From the NCBI GenBank assembly GCA_020832545.1, contig JAFIEK010000036.1, positions 1 through 38,758 of the forward strand: a stretch of DNA of 38,758 nt, written 5' to 3'. Shown one piece after another: positions 10,296 to 20,743 of the stretch. The notes below the pieces were generated by a model. The model was not told where the DNA came from. It saw only the letters and a list, made by a program, of their open reading frames with translations, and ran no database searches. The position numbers were made by a program, and so were the translations under genes. Positions within the stretch are counted from its first letter, which is position 1, and each line of letters begins with the position of its first letter. Source of the stretch: Pararhodobacter sp. GTDB taxonomy: Bacteria > Pseudomonadota > Alphaproteobacteria > Rhodobacterales > Rhodobacteraceae.

Positions 10296-10370
10296 TGGAG
10301 CGGGCGAGGCGATTCGAACGCCCGACCCTAACCTTGGCAAGGTTATGCTCTACCCCTGAGCTACGCCCGC
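10296..10370 (-). tRNA. tRNA-Gly (anticodon GCC), downstream copy
   Basis: A 75-base cloverleaf with encoded CCA. The acceptor stem is GCGGGCG/CGCCCGC with discriminator T, the D arm is AGCTCAGGGGTAGAGC, the anticodon loop is CTTGCCAAG-like with GCC at its centre, and the T loop is TTCGAAT. The T stem is GGGCG/CGCCT, with one G-U pair. The rest is identical to the copy at 10515-10589 except this T stem. It is separated from that copy by a terminator, so it probably has its own promoter. Confidence 0.97.
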
Positions 10371-10514: not shown

Positions 10515-10589
10515 TGGAGCGGGCGATGAGATTCGAACTCACGACCCTAACCTTGGCAAGGTTATGCTCTACCCCTGAGCTACGCCCGC
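10515..10589 (-). tRNA. tRNA-Gly (anticodon GCC), upstream copy
   Basis: A 75-base cloverleaf with encoded CCA. The acceptor stem is GCGGGCG/CGCCCGC, the anticodon is GCC and the T loop is TTCGAAT. It differs from the other copy only in the T stem, here GTGAG/CTCAT, in which both sides changed together so pairing is kept. It has its own terminator directly downstream and its own promoter upstream. Confidence 0.97.
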
Positions 10590-16210: not shown

Positions 16211-18628
16211 ATGAGCAGCGAAACCACATCCGGGCAAAGCCTGTCGCAGCAGGCCATGGCGCAGGCGGGGCAGGCGGCACAGGCGCGCTATATGGAGGGG
16301 TTGAACGAGCCCCAGCGCGAAGCCGTTGCGGCCATGGATGGCCCGGTCCTGATGCTGGCGGGGGCGGGCACCGGGAAAACCCGCGCCCTGACCGCGCGCA
16401 TCGCCCATCTGATCGCCACCGGCACCGCGCGACCCAATGAAATTCTGGCCGTGACCTTCACCAACAAGGCCGCGCGCGAGATGAAAAACCGTATCGGTGC
16501 GCTTTTGGGTGACTCGGTCGAGGGAATGCGCTGGCTGGGCACCTTTCATTCGATAGGTGTCAAGCTGTTGCGCAGGCATGCCGAACTGGTGGGGCTGAAG
16601 CCCGGCTTCACCATTCTGGACACCGATGACCAGTTGCGCTTGCTCAAGCAGTTGATTCAGGCCTTCAATATCGACGAAAAGCGCTGGCCTGCGCGGCAGA
16701 TGGCCTCGATCATCGATGGCTGGAAAAACCGCGCATGGCGCCCCGAATCGGTGCCAGGGGCTGAGGCCGGGGCCTATAACCATCGTGGCACCGAAATCTA
16801 CGCCGCCTATCAGGACCGCCTGCGCACGCTCAACGCCTGTGATTTCGGCGATCTGCTGCTGCATGCGGTGACGATCTTTCAACAGCATCCTGATGTGCTG
16901 GCCCAATACCAGCGCTGGCTGCGCTACATACTGGTCGATGAGTATCAAGATACCAATGTGGTGCAGTATCTGTGGTTGCGGCTTCTGGCCGGGGGGCACA
17001 AGAATATCTGCTGCGTCGGCGATGATGATCAGTCAATCTACGGCTGGCGCGGGGCAGAGGTGGGCAATATCCTGCGGTTTGAGCGTGATTTTCCCGGCGC
17101 CAAGGTGATCCGGCTTGAGCAGAATTACCGCTCGACCCCGCATATTCTGGCCGCGGCTTCGGCGGTGATTGCGGGCAACGAGGGGCGGCTGGGCAAGACG
17201 CTGTGGACCGAGCTGGAAGAGGGCGAAAAGGTGCGCCTGATCGGCCACTGGGACGGCGAGGAAGAGGCGCGCTGGATCGGTGATGAGATCGAGGCGCTGG
17301 AGCGCGGCGCGCGCGGGTTGGAGCCGATCTCACGCAACAACATGGCGATTCTGGTCCGTGCCAGCCACCAGATGCGCGCGTTCGAGGACCGTTTCCTGTC
17401 AATCGGCCTGCCTTACCGGGTGATCGGCGGCCCGCGCTTTTATGAGCGGCTGGAGATTCGTGATGCGATGGCCTATTTCCGCCTCGCCATCTCACCCACC
17501 GACGATCTGGCCTTTGAACGCATCGTCAACACGCCCAAGCGCGGATTGGGTGACAAGGCGCAGCAGACCATCCAGAAAGTGGCGCGCGCGGCTGATGTGC
17601 CGCTTCTTATGGGCGCGCGCCTGGCATTGCGCGACGGGCTGATATCGGGCCGGGCCTCGGGCGCGCTGCGGTTGTTTGTTGAGCAGATGGAACGCTGGCA
17701 TGACGCTGTGGGCACCGCGCCCGCCGCGCCCATGATCGAAGACGGGCTGGTGATAGAAGAGCCGCGCGACACCGGCTTGTCGCATATCGAACTGGCCGAG
17801 CAGATACTGGACGAAACCGGCTATACCGCCATGTGGCAGGCCGACAAGTCGCCCGATGCGCAGGGGCGGCTGGAGAACCTGAAAGAACTGATCAAGGCGC
17901 TGGAAAACTTTGAAAACCTTCAGGGCTTTCTGGAGCATGTTGCACTGATCATGGACAACGAATCCGAGGATTCGGCGGAAAAAGTCACCATCATGACGCT
18001 GCATGGGGCCAAGGGGCTGGAATTTCCCGTGGTCTTCCTGCCGGGCTGGGAGGACGGGTTGTTCCCGTCACAGCGCAGCATGGACGAGACCGGGCGCAAA
18101 GGCCTGGAGGAGGAACGCCGCCTGGCCTATGTCGGCATCACACGGGCTGAGCGGCTGTGCACCATCTCTTTCGCCGCCAATCGCCGGGTCTACGGGCAAT
18201 GGCAATCGCAACTGCCCTCGCGTTTCATCGATGAACTGCCCGCCGATCATGTCGAGGTTCTGACCCCACCGGGATTGTATGGCGGGGGCTTTGGTGCGGC
18301 GGGGATGTCGCGGGCCTCTTCGACGGTCGAATCCCGCGCAGCAAAGGCCGATGTCTATGCCTCGCCGGGCTGGAAGCGGTTGCAGTCACGTAGTCAGATG
18401 ACAGCAACTCCGGCGGAACTGGGGCGCAGCATCGCGCGGGCCTCAGGGGCCGGGGATGGGCCGTTTTTCAGCCCCGGTGAACGGGTGATGCATCCGAAGT
18501 TCGGGCTGGGCACCATCGTCGCGGCCGAAGGTGACAAAATGGCCGTGGCCTTTGACCGTGCGGGCGAAAAGCATATCGTCGCGCGCTTCCTGACCCCTGC
18601 CGAAGGGGTGGATGACGTGCCGTTCTGA
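16211..18628 (+). CDS. uvrD: ATP-dependent DNA helicase UvrD/PcrA (superfamily 1)
   Basis: A 3'-5' SF1A helicase acting after UvrABC and in mismatch repair to strip the cut strand. The motifs in order are LNEPQREAV (Q motif), LAGAGTGKTRAL (Walker A, residues 49-60), VTFTNKAAREMK (Ia), LVDEYQDTN (Walker B), GDDDQSIYGWRGA (III), LEQNYRST (IV), IMTLHGAKGLEFPVVF (V) and EERRLAYVGITRAE (VI). The 805-aa length and a C-terminal Tudor-like end (GERVMHPKFGLGTIVAAEGD) fit PcrA/UvrD with an RNA-polymerase-binding tail. ATG 16211 is the natural start. A SOS box lies 64 bases upstream. It converges with the hairpin RNA operon downstream. Confidence 0.97.
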   Translation: MSSETTSGQSLSQQAMAQAGQAAQARYMEGLNEPQREAVAAMDGPVLMLAGAGTGKTRALTARIAHLIATGTARPNEILAVTFTNKAAREMKNRIGALLGDSVEGMRWLGTFHSIGVKLLRRHAELVGLKPGFTILDTDDQLRLLKQLIQAFNIDEKRWPARQMASIIDGWKNRAWRPESVPGAEAGAYNHRGTEIYAAYQDRLRTLNACDFGDLLLHAVTIFQQHPDVLAQYQRWLRYILVDEYQDTNVVQYLWLRLLAGGHKNICCVGDDDQSIYGWRGAEVGNILRFERDFPGAKVIRLEQNYRSTPHILAAASAVIAGNEGRLGKTLWTELEEGEKVRLIGHWDGEEEARWIGDEIEALERGARGLEPISRNNMAILVRASHQMRAFEDRFLSIGLPYRVIGGPRFYERLEIRDAMAYFRLAISPTDDLAFERIVNTPKRGLGDKAQQTIQKVARAADVPLLMGARLALRDGLISGRASGALRLFVEQMERWHDAVGTAPAAPMIEDGLVIEEPRDTGLSHIELAEQILDETGYTAMWQADKSPDAQGRLENLKELIKALENFENLQGFLEHVALIMDNESEDSAEKVTIMTLHGAKGLEFPVVFLPGWEDGLFPSQRSMDETGRKGLEEERRLAYVGITRAERLCTISFAANRRVYGQWQSQLPSRFIDELPADHVEVLTPPGLYGGGFGAAGMSRASSTVESRAAKADVYASPGWKRLQSRSQMTATPAELGRSIARASGAGDGPFFSPGERVMHPKFGLGTIVAAEGDKMAVAFDRAGEKHIVARFLTPAEGVDDVPF

Positions 18629-18670: not shown

Positions 18671-18716
18671 AAAACAAAAAACGCGGCTGCCCTGGGAGGA
18701 GGAGGGGGCAGCCGCG
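18671..18716 (-). terminator. Terminator of the DUF1127-sRNA operon, with CCUCCUCCC in its loop
   Basis: On the minus strand CGCGGCTGCCC (18716-18706) and GGGCAGCCGCG (18692-18682) form a perfect 11-bp stem. The 13-base loop contains the CCUCCUCCC motif. It is followed at once by TTTTTTGTTTT (18681-18671). The last loop of the array is thus itself the intrinsic terminator. Confidence 0.9.
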
Positions 18717-18755
18717 CTATTTGTGCTTGGATCCGGGAGGAGGAGGGACCCTTGC
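18682..18755 (-). ncRNA. CcsR-like sRNA, fourth (last) two-hairpin unit
   Basis: Two hairpins 41 bases apart with loop motif GGGAGGAGG on the plus strand at 18735-18743 and 18694-18702, i.e. CCUCCUCCC in the minus-strand RNA. The first (18725-18755) has arms GCAAGGGTCC/GGATCCAAGC on the minus strand, with one G-U pair and a 2-base internal loop. The second is the operon terminator. Layout matches a CcsR unit of R. sphaeroides. Exact ends would be set by RNase processing and cannot be read here. Confidence 0.75.
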
Positions 18756-18763
18756 ATCACTAT

Positions 18764-18780
18764 GGAACACAAATGTGTCC
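18764..18780 (-). other. Small spacer hairpin between sRNA units three and four
   Basis: GGAACAC and GTGTCC pair around AAAT with one bulged A. It fills part of the longer 70-base interval between motif loops and lacks the CCUCC motif. Possible processing site or separator; inferred only. Confidence 0.35.
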
Positions 18781-18789
18781 CGATTTTGT

Positions 18790-18865
18790 TTGCACGACCA
18801 CCCAGGGAGGAGGAGAGGGTCGGCGCGCAAATGTGCCTGGTTCGGGGAGGAGGTCGAACCAGGCA
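18790..18865 (-). ncRNA. CcsR-like sRNA, third two-hairpin unit
   Basis: Loop motifs (plus-strand GGGAGGAGG) at 18845-18853 and 18805-18813, 40 bases apart. The first hairpin is a perfect 11-bp stem, TGCCTGGTTCG/CGAACCAGGCA (18834-18844 with 18855-18865). The second pairs 18790-18803 with 18817-18830, 12 of 14 positions on the minus strand counting one G-U. The RNA shows CCUCCUCCC in both loops, the sequence of the 16S rRNA anti-Shine-Dalgarno end. Confidence 0.77.
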
Positions 18866-18891
18866 TTCCGGTGGGGCTTTGGGCCCCGAAT
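18865..18891 (-). other. Spacer hairpin between sRNA units two and three
   Basis: GGGGC (18873-18877) pairs with GCCCC (18883-18887), extended by ATTC/GAAT (18865-18868 with 18888-18891) across a 4-base bulge. No CCUCC motif and no U-tract. It occupies the 65-base interval between motif loops. Confidence 0.4.
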
Positions 18892-18896
18892 AACGG

Positions 18897-18972
18897 GCGC
18901 GGTTGCCCAGGGAGGAGGAGAGGACAACCGCGCTGTTGAGCGAACAGACCCGGGAGGAGGTGGGCCCGCGCA
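18897..18972 (-). ncRNA. CcsR-like sRNA, second two-hairpin unit
   Basis: Loop motifs at 18952-18960 and 18910-18918, 42 bases apart. The first hairpin (18941-18972) pairs at 10 of 11 positions on the minus strand, four of them G-U; on the plus strand these are A-C mismatches. The second (18897-18933) is a 12-bp stem with GCGCGGTTG/CAACCGCGC plus an inner G-U and two G-C pairs. The strand bias of the wobble pairs shows that the minus-strand RNA is the functional form. Confidence 0.77.
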
Positions 18973-18979
18973 TCAGGTT

Positions 18980-19051
18980 GGAACGGCCGCAGGGAGGAGG
19001 AGAGCGGCGGTTCCGTCACGATCGGCCCAGGGAGGAGGAGGGGCCTTTCGT
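18980..19051 (-). ncRNA. CcsR-like sRNA, first two-hairpin unit
   Basis: Loop motifs at 19030-19038 and 18992-19000, 38 bases apart. The second hairpin pairs GGAACGGCCGC (18980-18990) with GCGGCGGTTCC (19004-19014), 10 of 11. The first pairs 19019-19028 with 19041-19050, 8 of 10. It starts about 45 bases after the DUF1127 stop, so it would be released from the 3' UTR of that message. Confidence 0.77.
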
Positions 19052-19096
19052 CTCGTGTCGGGCGGGCGCTGGGCGCCAACCCGGAATTCTCTTGCC

Positions 19097-19315
19097 TCAG
19101 GCGTTCTTGCCATAGGCGGCTTCATACGCCAGCCGGGTGATCATTGAGCGCGAAACGCCCATGTCTTGCAGTTCCCGGGTGCTCAGCGCACTCAGCTCTT
19201 CATACGTGCGCCGGAACGTGATGTACCGGTTCCAGCTGTCAGCGAGCCCTGCGAAGAAATCGCGGACGGTGCTGAAGGGGCTTGCGCCGCGGAAGGTTTC
19301 ATTCAGAAAAGCCAT
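19097..19315 (-). CDS. ccaF1: DUF1127 small protein, CcaF1-like
   Basis: A 72-aa protein. The DUF1127 part is at the C-terminal half: WNRYITFRRTYEELSALSTRELQDMGVSRSMITRLAYEAAYG, with the usual LxxLSxRELxDxGxxR pattern. The Arg-rich helix fits nucleic-acid binding. In R. sphaeroides the homologous DUF1127 protein CcaF1 is encoded directly upstream of the CcsR sRNAs and binds RNA. Here the gene sits in the same place, 45 bases before the first hairpin, behind an RpoH-type promoter. DUF1127 genes are common in these genomes, so the symbol rests mainly on context. ATG 19315 is the only good start. Confidence 0.88.
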   Translation of the reverse strand: MAFLNETFRGASPFSTVRDFFAGLADSWNRYITFRRTYEELSALSTRELQDMGVSRSMITRLAYEAAYGKNA

Positions 19316-19398
19316 GTTCGTGCTCTTTCATCTTCGTTCTGCCGCGCTTTCCTGCCGTTCGCTTGCTTTCCGGCGCGGTTCTGTTCGTCTTGAAGGTA

Positions 19399-19426
19399 AG
19401 ATGGGGGAAATGCTGCGCTTGCACAA
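19399..19426 (-). promoter_or_regulatory. RpoH (sigma-32)-type promoter of the DUF1127-sRNA operon
   Basis: On the minus strand TTGTGC (19426-19421), a 14-base spacer, then CCCCATCT (19406-19399). The second element matches the sigma-32 -10 consensus CCCCAT-N-T at every defined position, and the spacing is typical for heat-shock promoters. A start near 19390 leaves a leader of about 75 bases. The R. sphaeroides ccsR operon is known to depend on RpoHI/RpoHII, so the match agrees with the operon identity. Confidence 0.7.
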
Positions 19427-19636
19427 TCCCTTGCTTCGTCAATGCTGCCATGCAGCGACTGCATGGCGACGCGGCGTAAACTTTTGGCTGGAATCAATGG
19501 ACTTGCCGCGAAAATGATCGCCCGGCAAAGTTTGGCAGGGGGCGCAAGGTCGCATCGGCTTGCATCGGCCTTGTTCGGCTGGAAAAAGAGCACAGGTTTA
19601 GCGCGACAGAACGACCGGCCAGAACAGGAGCCCGCC

Positions 19637-20743
19637 ATGAACACGCCCCCATCCCCCACGCGCGAAGAGGTGCTTGAAGCACTGCGCGCCGTCACCTTGC
19701 CTGACGGTGGTGATCTGGTCGGGCGCGATTTGGTGCGCGCACTGGTCGTGGACGAAGGCATTGTGCGATTCGTGCTTGAAGCCGAAACACCTGAGGACGC
19801 GCGCAAGCTGGAAACGGTGCGCGGGCAGGCCGAGCGCGCGGTTCTGGCGCTGCCCGGTGTGGCCAAGGTCAATGTGGCGCTGACCGCGCATGGTCCCGCC
19901 GCAAAGCCCAGCCCCCGCCCACCGCAAGGAGGCCCACAAGGCGAGGCGCCATCGCTTAAGATCGGTCGTCACCCCACTGCGGGCCCTGCCACTGTGCCGG
20001 GCGTCAAACGGATCATTGCCATCGGCTCGGGCAAGGGCGGGGTGGGCAAATCCACCGTTTCTTCAAATCTGGCAGTGGCCCTGTCGCGTGAGGGCTGGCG
20101 CGTGGGGCTGTTGGACGCCGATATATACGGCCCCAGCCAGCCGCGCATGATGGGCGTCAGCAAGCGCCCCGCCTCGCCCGATGGCAAGATCATCGTGCCC
20201 CCGGTGGCGCATGGCGTCACCATGATCTCGATCGGGCTGATGCTGCGCGAAGATGAGGCGGTGATCTGGCGCGGGCCGATGCTTATGGGCGCGTTGCAGC
20301 AGTTGCTGACGCAGGTGCAATGGGGCGAACTGGATGTGCTGATCGTCGACATGCCACCGGGCACGGGCGATGTGCAACTGACGCTCTGTCAGAAATTCGA
20401 CGTCTTTGGCGCGATCGTGGTGTCCACCCCGCAGGACGTGGCGCTGCTGGATGCCCGCAAGGCCCTGCGCGCTTTTCAGACACTGAAAACCCCGATTCTG
20501 GGCCTGATCGAAAACATGTCGACCTTCATCTGCCCCAAATGCGGCCATGAAGAGCATATCTTCGGTGATGGTGGCGTGAAGCGCGAGGCAGAGAAGTTGG
20601 GCCTGCCGTTTCTTGGTGAGCTGCCGCTGTCGGTCGAGGTGCGGCTGGCGGGCGATGGCGGTATTCCGGTCGCGGCCACGGACAGCCCGGTTGCCGATGC
20701 CTACCGTCGCATGGCGAAGCGGCTGATGGAACGCTGCGCCTGA
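19637..20743 (+). CDS. mrp: Mrp/ApbC family iron-sulfur cluster carrier ATPase
   Basis: A 368-aa P-loop ATPase that carries a [4Fe-4S] cluster to apo-proteins in the cytosol. The N-terminal MIP18-like domain (1-85) is followed by a Pro/Gly-rich linker and the deviant Walker A SGKGGVGKST (131-140). LLDADIYGPSQPRMMG and LIVDMPPGTGDVQLTL follow, then the cluster-ligating pair CPKC (Cys299, Cys302). All family residues are present. ATG 19637 has CAGGAG six bases upstream and gives the normal length. An in-frame opening at 19442 would overlap the divergent RpoH promoter. The gene ends with a GC-rich hairpin (20769-20787) and no obvious T-run. Confidence 0.96.
   Translation: MNTPPSPTREEVLEALRAVTLPDGGDLVGRDLVRALVVDEGIVRFVLEAETPEDARKLETVRGQAERAVLALPGVAKVNVALTAHGPAAKPSPRPPQGGPQGEAPSLKIGRHPTAGPATVPGVKRIIAIGSGKGGVGKSTVSSNLAVALSREGWRVGLLDADIYGPSQPRMMGVSKRPASPDGKIIVPPVAHGVTMISIGLMLREDEAVIWRGPMLMGALQQLLTQVQWGELDVLIVDMPPGTGDVQLTLCQKFDVFGAIVVSTPQDVALLDARKALRAFQTLKTPILGLIENMSTFICPKCGHEEHIFGDGGVKREAEKLGLPFLGELPLSVEVRLAGDGGIPVAATDSPVADAYRRMAKRLMERCA

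Follow-up and report, generated by a model that had tools for sequence, protein, structure and literature searches.

Hairpins with variable stems whose loops show the anti-Shine-Dalgarno sequence CCUCCUCCC were described in Sinorhizobium in 2011, and the same hairpin class was linked to RS0680a, a two-stem-loop stress RNA of Rhodobacter sphaeroides (PMC3927594). In R. sphaeroides, four CcsR RNAs and ccaF1 are reported to share a transcript that runs from an RpoHI/RpoHII promoter to a Rho-independent terminator and is cut by RNase E (PMC10253847); RNase E cutting and effects of PNPase have also been reported for CcsR1-4 (PMC7866481). In S. meliloti, LsrB is reported to bind a TGCA-N6-GCAT sequence upstream of the ar14 RNA NfeR1 and to be required for NfeR1 transcription (PMC10746234). 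Here we analysed a stretch of 38,758 nucleotides of Pararhodobacter sp. (contig JAFIEK010000036.1, positions 1 to 38,758; referred to below as the window), in which a DUF1127 gene is followed on the minus strand by eight motif-bearing hairpins. This operon is of the ccaF1-ccsR type and belongs to the cuckoo RNA (Rfam ar14 / CcsR) family, a kind already described. As such it is a further example of a known system, useful mainly for checking size and layout. The reading of its promoter, if true, joins the Rhodobacter stress RNAs with the rhizobial redox LysR regulator LsrB and with NfeR1. On balance, and with limited assurance, we favour the view that the cuckoo (CcsR-type) RNAs of Rhodobacteraceae and their DUF1127 partners form one regulon, switched on via an LsrB-type LysR regulator at two TGCA-N6-GCAT boxes 39-40 bp apart. 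This circuit would be shared with rhizobial NfeR1 and would thus predate the divergence of the two orders.

The DUF1127 gene and the eight-hairpin array

Eight plus-strand GGGAGGAGG sites, claimed by the original prediction as loops of eight hairpins, were found exactly at the coordinates given there. The whole window contains nine matches to GGGAGGAGG, eight of them in the array, compared with a mean of 0.42 and a largest count of 2 in 100 shuffles. Read on the minus strand, eight exact CCTCCTCCC motifs are packed in 345 bp downstream of the DUF1127 gene, the first of them 58 nt past the stop codon of that gene, and the predicted intervals in transcription order (38, 40, 42, 65, 40, 70 and 41 nt) are correct. 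The array is beyond chance. As located by motif search and folding, its minus-strand hairpins lie, in transcription order, at 19016..19052 (hairpin 1, motif 19030-19038), 18978..19014 (hairpin 2, motif 18992-19000), 18938..18974 (hairpin 3, motif 18952-18960), 18896..18932 (hairpin 4, motif 18910-18918), 18831..18867 (hairpin 5, motif 18845-18853), 18791..18827 (hairpin 6, motif 18805-18813) and 18721..18757 (hairpin 7, motif 18735-18743), followed by hairpin 8 with its U-run at 18671..18716 (motif 18694-18702).

The position of the motif in the loops was borne out by the predicted 37-nt folds, where the 9-nt motif was fully unpaired in 8 of 8 cases. The fold z-scores ranged from -1.2 to -6.8, and hairpins 3 (z -1.2, the weakest) and 7 (z -1.8) are weak alone because of their low scores. 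In these folds the closing stems differ in sequence, in agreement with the claim that the stems are unlike one another: the mean arm identity between window hairpins is 37%, and the 13-nt hairpin core is 85% identical, 9 of its 13 positions being so by construction. Among 37 loci, the motif was unpaired inside at least five pairs in 288 of 295 distinct stretches, compared with 19% for mononucleotide-shuffled flanks. Both long gaps contain a small motif-free hairpin in the predicted fold (minus strand, 18873..18887 in the 65-nt gap and 18764..18781 in the 70-nt gap). The stem of hairpin 8 is followed by TTTTTTGTTTT, and this hairpin is therefore likely to be an intrinsic (Rho-independent) terminator; a terminator scan did not list it because its loop is too long for the rule applied, which admits loops of 3-8 only.

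The gene ahead of the array (19097..19315, minus strand) encodes a CcaF1-like protein of 72 amino acids whose proposed assignment to DUF1127 is confirmed by a Pfam match (PF06568, 42.4 bits, cut-off 23.3). Close relatives of this protein were sought in viral contigs and none was confirmed. An Rfam ar14 (RF02344) match covers hairpins 1-3 (18937..19057, minus strand; 62.0 bits, gathering cut-off 58.8). With the DUF1127 gene, the motif hairpins, an ar14 match above cut-off, the layout of the R. sphaeroides group and an Mrp/ApbC gene divergent upstream, the operon is of the CcsR-CcaF1 type, as had been proposed. A second array in the same genome was rejected: three other ar14 matches are weak (E 0.06, 0.46 and 7.8), and two of them, when inspected, corresponded to poly-C sequence and to a site lying partly inside a coding sequence and partly next to it.

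The same organization was found in related genomes. In 30 loci picked by ar14 score alone (that of the window and 29 others, all at or above the Rfam cut-off), a DUF1127 gene stood just upstream in 28. An ar14 match was obtained at E <= 0.1 in 212 of 248 Rhodobacteraceae genomes, and 31 of the 248 had one over the cut-off. The Mrp/ApbC gene was divergent upstream in 23 of the 30 loci and in 7 of 7 further loci, and a UvrD/PcrA-type gene was convergent downstream in 16 of the 30; the counts of 23 and 16 are lower bounds because the flanks extend only ~1.5 kb. In the window both neighbours lie on the plus strand, the Mrp/ApbC-type gene at 19442..20743 (best model E 9e-95, below its cut-off; the true start is possibly further downstream) and the UvrD/PcrA-type helicase gene at 16211..18628 (best model E 3e-228, below its cut-off).

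A covariance search in the R. sphaeroides group, suggested as a check, was carried out with the Rfam ar14 model on Cereibacter johrii, Luteovulum azotoformans and Cereibacter ovatus, which were found through PufX; R. sphaeroides itself was outside the sample. All three genomes were matched, with best scores of 46-48 bits (E 1e-7 to 5e-7), although no match exceeded the Rfam cut-off. Despite these scores, motif count and gene order were unambiguous, and each of the three has a DUF1127 gene and exactly eight motifs. Eight is also the commonest motif count in the 30 loci (9 loci; median 8, range 2-15), which are not a random sample because they are the best-scoring ones. The operon, which had been called enlarged, is thus of ordinary size for the family.

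Larger arrays were present in other loci, with 26 (L048), 17 (L051), 16 (L050), 15 (L007) and 14 (L017) motifs, and the only other genome searched from the same genus (L049) has 11. The 26 exact motifs of L048 (1382-2552, minus orientation; G165:C1 334949-336119) lie behind a DUF1127 gene in an array built largely from 6.5 copies, at 97% identity, of a three-hairpin unit of 140 bp, a recent tandem expansion. Locus L157 (G051:C4 691060-693102), from a Cereibacter-like genome, shares 98% identity with C. johrii across 1.07 kb and carries 14 motifs in seven pairs instead of 8; its pairs 3-7 are near-identical repeats of ~114 bp. Unit number seems to change fast and may be underestimated in short-read assemblies.

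In C. johrii the motif gaps (39/66/37/76/39/74/39) form four clear pairs, and the other two genomes of the R. sphaeroides group are alike. In the window, hairpins 1-4 are evenly spaced (38/40/42) and hairpins 5-8 form two pairs. The proposed four two-hairpin units, with one of the linkers short, are a reasonable reading of this spacing, short of proof.

In a search aimed beyond the family, 8 of 385 genomes were matched by ar14, four of them belonging to other families, and one of those four loci (L083) contained an exact motif; this search is weak because at most eight candidates per genome were scored. A second search of this kind matched 3 of 58 genomes, one of another family. Two small genomes from a different alphaproteobacterial family hold a possible divergent relative (L080 near 1482, minus; L083 near 1482, plus), with hairpin-like sequences that carry a single CCUCCUCCC and C/U-rich loops of shorter length, the final one ahead of a U-run; no DUF1127 gene was found within either locus.

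The promoter element and the loci it marks

Upstream of the DUF1127 gene, the minus strand of the window carries two TGCA-N6-GCAT boxes 40 bp apart, the first at 19450..19463, which fits the LsrB-type site as defined in PMC10746234, and the second, a match to the same pattern, at 19410..19423. A bipartite element GCATGGCAGCATTG-N13-TTGTGCAAGCGCAGCA (19411..19453, minus strand) is exact here and has a single match in the genome. The sequence TTGTGC-N17-CATCTT (19398..19426, minus strand) may be a core promoter, putatively one of a stress sigma factor; a promoter scan of the window found no sigma-70 type site here.

The promoter sample consisted of 35 stretches upstream of DUF1127 genes at such loci, the window included, and was compared with 200 shuffles. 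TTGTGC was present in 35 of 35 stretches (largest shuffled count 7), TTGTGCANNYGCAG in 34 (largest 1) and a GCATNGCNGCATTG-like part (GCAT...GCATTG-like) in 27 (largest 1). At least one TGCA-N6-GCAT box was found in 30 of the 35 (shuffles: mean 0.7, largest 4). Two boxes were found in 16, and in all 16 they were spaced by 39 or 40 bp.

The general form of the element, GCATRGCRGCATTG-N12/13-TTGTGCANNYGCAGCA, was exact in 113 of 248 Rhodobacteraceae genomes (116 places), and a reversed control gave none. Of these places, 64 were testable, their genomes having a listed ar14 place, and in 60 of the 64 an ar14 match followed the element on its own strand at a distance of up to 1.5 kb. A further survey covered 57 fetched places, made up of the remaining 52, the 4 that had shown no such match and one that had already passed (G197). 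In 56 of these the element stood ahead of a DUF1127 gene, of at least two motif-like strings, or of both; the remaining one, L166, is near a contig start. A DUF1127 gene was found within 700 nt of the element in 48 of the 57, and at least two exact motifs within 1.5 kb in 45. Motif-like strings, which are unfolded sequence matches, numbered at least two within 1.5 kb in 52 places; the opposite strand gave this result at none of the 57 places, and 30 shuffles gave it at 1.9 places on average and at 5 at most. In the 9 of the 57 places where no DUF1127 gene was found, the first motif-like string lay 62 to 268 nt past the element in all but one. Exact motif counts ranged from 0 to 14 in this sample, the commonest being 4 (8 places), then 2 or 5 (7 each), and where two boxes were present their spacing was 39 or 40 bp in 22 of 23 cases.

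In two genomes the operon is split: the hairpins and the DUF1127 gene lie at separate loci, with the element at both (G094, loci L192 and L193; G048, loci L032 and L196). The retention of the element at both halves, together with the downstream survey, is the best evidence that it is a regulatory site of the regulon. With the element as query, stand-alone and split loci can be found independently of the RNA model. An odd order was observed at L199 (G055:C1 2820777-2822818), where the element is followed by motif-like strings at 68 and 107, a DUF1127 frame (303-563) and two more strings.

Elsewhere in the Pararhodobacter genome, the box of the window was found at 13 further sites when up to two mismatches were allowed, all of them with two mismatches, and the reversed control gave 0. 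One of the 13 lies inside a trxB match. No DUF1127 gene stood out in the surroundings of the three sites that were inspected, where no family search was run.

An LsrB-like regulator in Rhodobacteraceae

LsrB was called unique to Rhizobiales in a 2025 paper (PMC11975290). Among 30 trxB loci, a single LysR-type gene adjoining trxB was picked by residue pattern, in L109, a locus of another alphaproteobacterial family. With its protein as query, one best match per genome was obtained in 23 of 23 genomes (20 of the Rhodobacteraceae, including that of the window, with C. johrii, L. azotoformans and C. ovatus) at 44-51% identity, followed by a drop to 35% or less; the match in G006 contains an internal stop codon. 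The corresponding Pararhodobacter protein (L141 1450-2364, minus; C102:137836-138714) matched the solved A. tumefaciens LsrB (9HH1) with an E-value of 3.2e-69, the next solved LysR protein reaching only 4.7e-30, and 50 of 65 residues are identical to 9HH1 at the N-terminal, DNA-binding end. The single clear match per genome and the match to 9HH1 therefore establish that an LsrB-like regulator exists in Rhodobacteraceae. From the sequences, this regulator is predicted to bind the element and would exert LsrB-type control of these operons.

The possibility that the LsrB-like gene lies next to trxB in the Pararhodobacter genome was ruled out, as the neighbour of trxB is another reading frame, which we take to be Lrp-like. 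The LsrB-like gene lies beside a reading frame that is presumably a 2-oxoglutarate oxygenase from its look, and is divergent from a large reading frame. A literature search found no work joining LsrB with CcsR, or LsrB with a small RNA of Rhodobacteraceae, the 2015 cuckoo RNA, 2015 CcsR and 2021 CcaF1 papers being outside its coverage.

Apart from these subjects, the window contains two near-identical tRNA genes 147 bp apart (10299-10370 and 10518-10589, minus strand), with GCC at the anticodon position in alignments.

Proposed mechanism, rival explanations and known systems

Taken as a whole, the locus is very probably a ccaF1-ccsR type cuckoo RNA operon that is processed by RNase E, acts on mRNAs through its loops and is transcribed from a promoter with two LsrB-type boxes. 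A stress or redox signal would trigger transcription from this promoter, in which two LsrB-type LysR boxes 40 bp apart would overlap or adjoin a stress sigma-factor promoter. The minus-strand transcript would start near 19390 and comprise the coding sequence of the DUF1127 RNA-binding protein, then the eight hairpins, the last acting as terminator. RNase E, with the DUF1127 protein, would cut it into short RNAs of one or more hairpins, whose CCUCCUCCC loops may base-pair with the purine-rich Shine-Dalgarno regions of mRNAs and thereby reduce mRNA translation or stability during stress. Co-transcription, RNase E cutting, the RpoHI/RpoHII promoter and the stress role are carried over by analogy from the R. 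sphaeroides papers, and loop pairing with mRNAs is likewise presumed for this organism. One candidate loop target was observed at L053 1501 (C37:150981 of the same genome), where GGGAGGAGG lies six bases before the ATG of a 268-amino-acid reading frame that we take to be an ABC-transporter permease.

Several results weigh against parts of this explanation. The above-cut-off ar14 match spans hairpins 1-3 only, two further matches in the array scoring 48.6 and 31.7 bits in the genome-wide search, and the spacing in the window does not resolve into four clean pairs. GGGAGGAGG lies 3-9 nt before an ATG at 4 sites in the genome compared with 2 in the reversed control, so full 9-nt sites are not clearly enriched; with full-length pairing sites this few, one has to assume that pairing is shorter or that each loop has several targets. 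The exact element was not matched in 135 of the 248 Rhodobacteraceae genomes, and it is absent from 39 of the 101 genomes with a listed ar14 place, so that either the pattern is too strict for many genomes or the element is absent there. The LsrB-like regulator was also found in 6 of 6 genomes of the family in which no ar14 match was found, and its presence alone therefore says nothing about the operon. None of 24 genomes has a TGCA-N6-GCAT box in the 300 nt that precede the regulator gene; autoregulation, in contrast, has been reported for LsrB of A. tumefaciens.

The upstream element could be an extended promoter of the RpoH type, a stress sigma factor, and not the site of a LysR regulator. 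An RpoHI/RpoHII promoter is named in the R. sphaeroides paper (PMC10253847), and TTGTGC-N17-CATCTT in the window fits a -35/-10 pair. However, conservation reaches ~37 bp upstream of the -35-like TTGTGC, in the form of a TGCA-N6-GCAT box repeated at 39 or 40 bp, and conservation of the downstream hexamer is weak, as judged on 25 of the 35 stretches, the others being dropped mostly for short flanks. We regard a promoter of RpoH type only as possible and rather unlikely. The hairpins could also be mainly cis-acting, stabilising or slowing the DUF1127 transcript or buffering the DUF1127 protein, with the loop as a protein-binding site and not a site of mRNA pairing. CcaF1 of R. sphaeroides is reported to bind RNA and to take part in processing of the ccaF1-CcsR transcript (PMC10253847); the 37 loci differ in motif number, with between 2 and 26 each, and start codons have few full complementary sites. 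A cis-only role is nevertheless improbable, considering that arrays free of DUF1127 carry the same element (2 of the 30 loci, and 8 of the 57 fetched places, which have motif-like strings but no DUF1127 gene within 700 nt), that hairpins and DUF1127 gene occupy different loci in G048 and G094, and that S. meliloti NfeR1 is reported as a trans-acting ar14 RNA in a paper whose main text does not mention DUF1127 (PMC10746234). It is hardly credible that the array is a dispersed or tandem REP-like DNA repeat with no RNA function. Tandem expansion does occur in a relative (the 140-bp unit at 97%), but the window stems differ (mean arm identity 37%) while pairing is kept, the genome has no other convincing array, gene order is conserved and a U-run follows the last hairpin in many loci.

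As in R. sphaeroides ccaF1-ccsR1-4, a DUF1127 gene of ~71-72 codons precedes the motif hairpins, of which the three genomes of that group also have eight, and an Mrp/ApbC gene is divergent upstream. The window differs in that its hairpins 1-4 are evenly spaced and not arranged in two pairs, and in that its DUF1127 protein has diverged. With the ar14 family, including S. meliloti NfeR1, it shares the adjacent placement of the hairpins, their CCUCCUCCC loops and variable stems, and an upstream TGCA-N6-GCAT box, which the NfeR1 promoter also has. NfeR1 is reported to have three hairpins and a sigma-70 signature, whereas the window has eight hairpins behind a protein gene. As to the LsrB/VtlR regulon, the regulator gene of this genome is not beside trxB, and the VtlR box of Agrobacterium and Brucella, reported as GCAT-N3-TG-N3-T (PMC7486931), differs from the window sequence GCAT-GGC-AG-CAT-T, which misses its TG; membership by that box is therefore not claimed. 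In Brucella, VtlR, as LsrB is named there, is reported to regulate three DUF1127 genes positively and to have the motif CAATGCAGCCATGCA (PMC12595884), and the window box read on the other strand, CAATGCTGCCATGCA, agrees with that motif in 14 of 15 letters when compared by eye.

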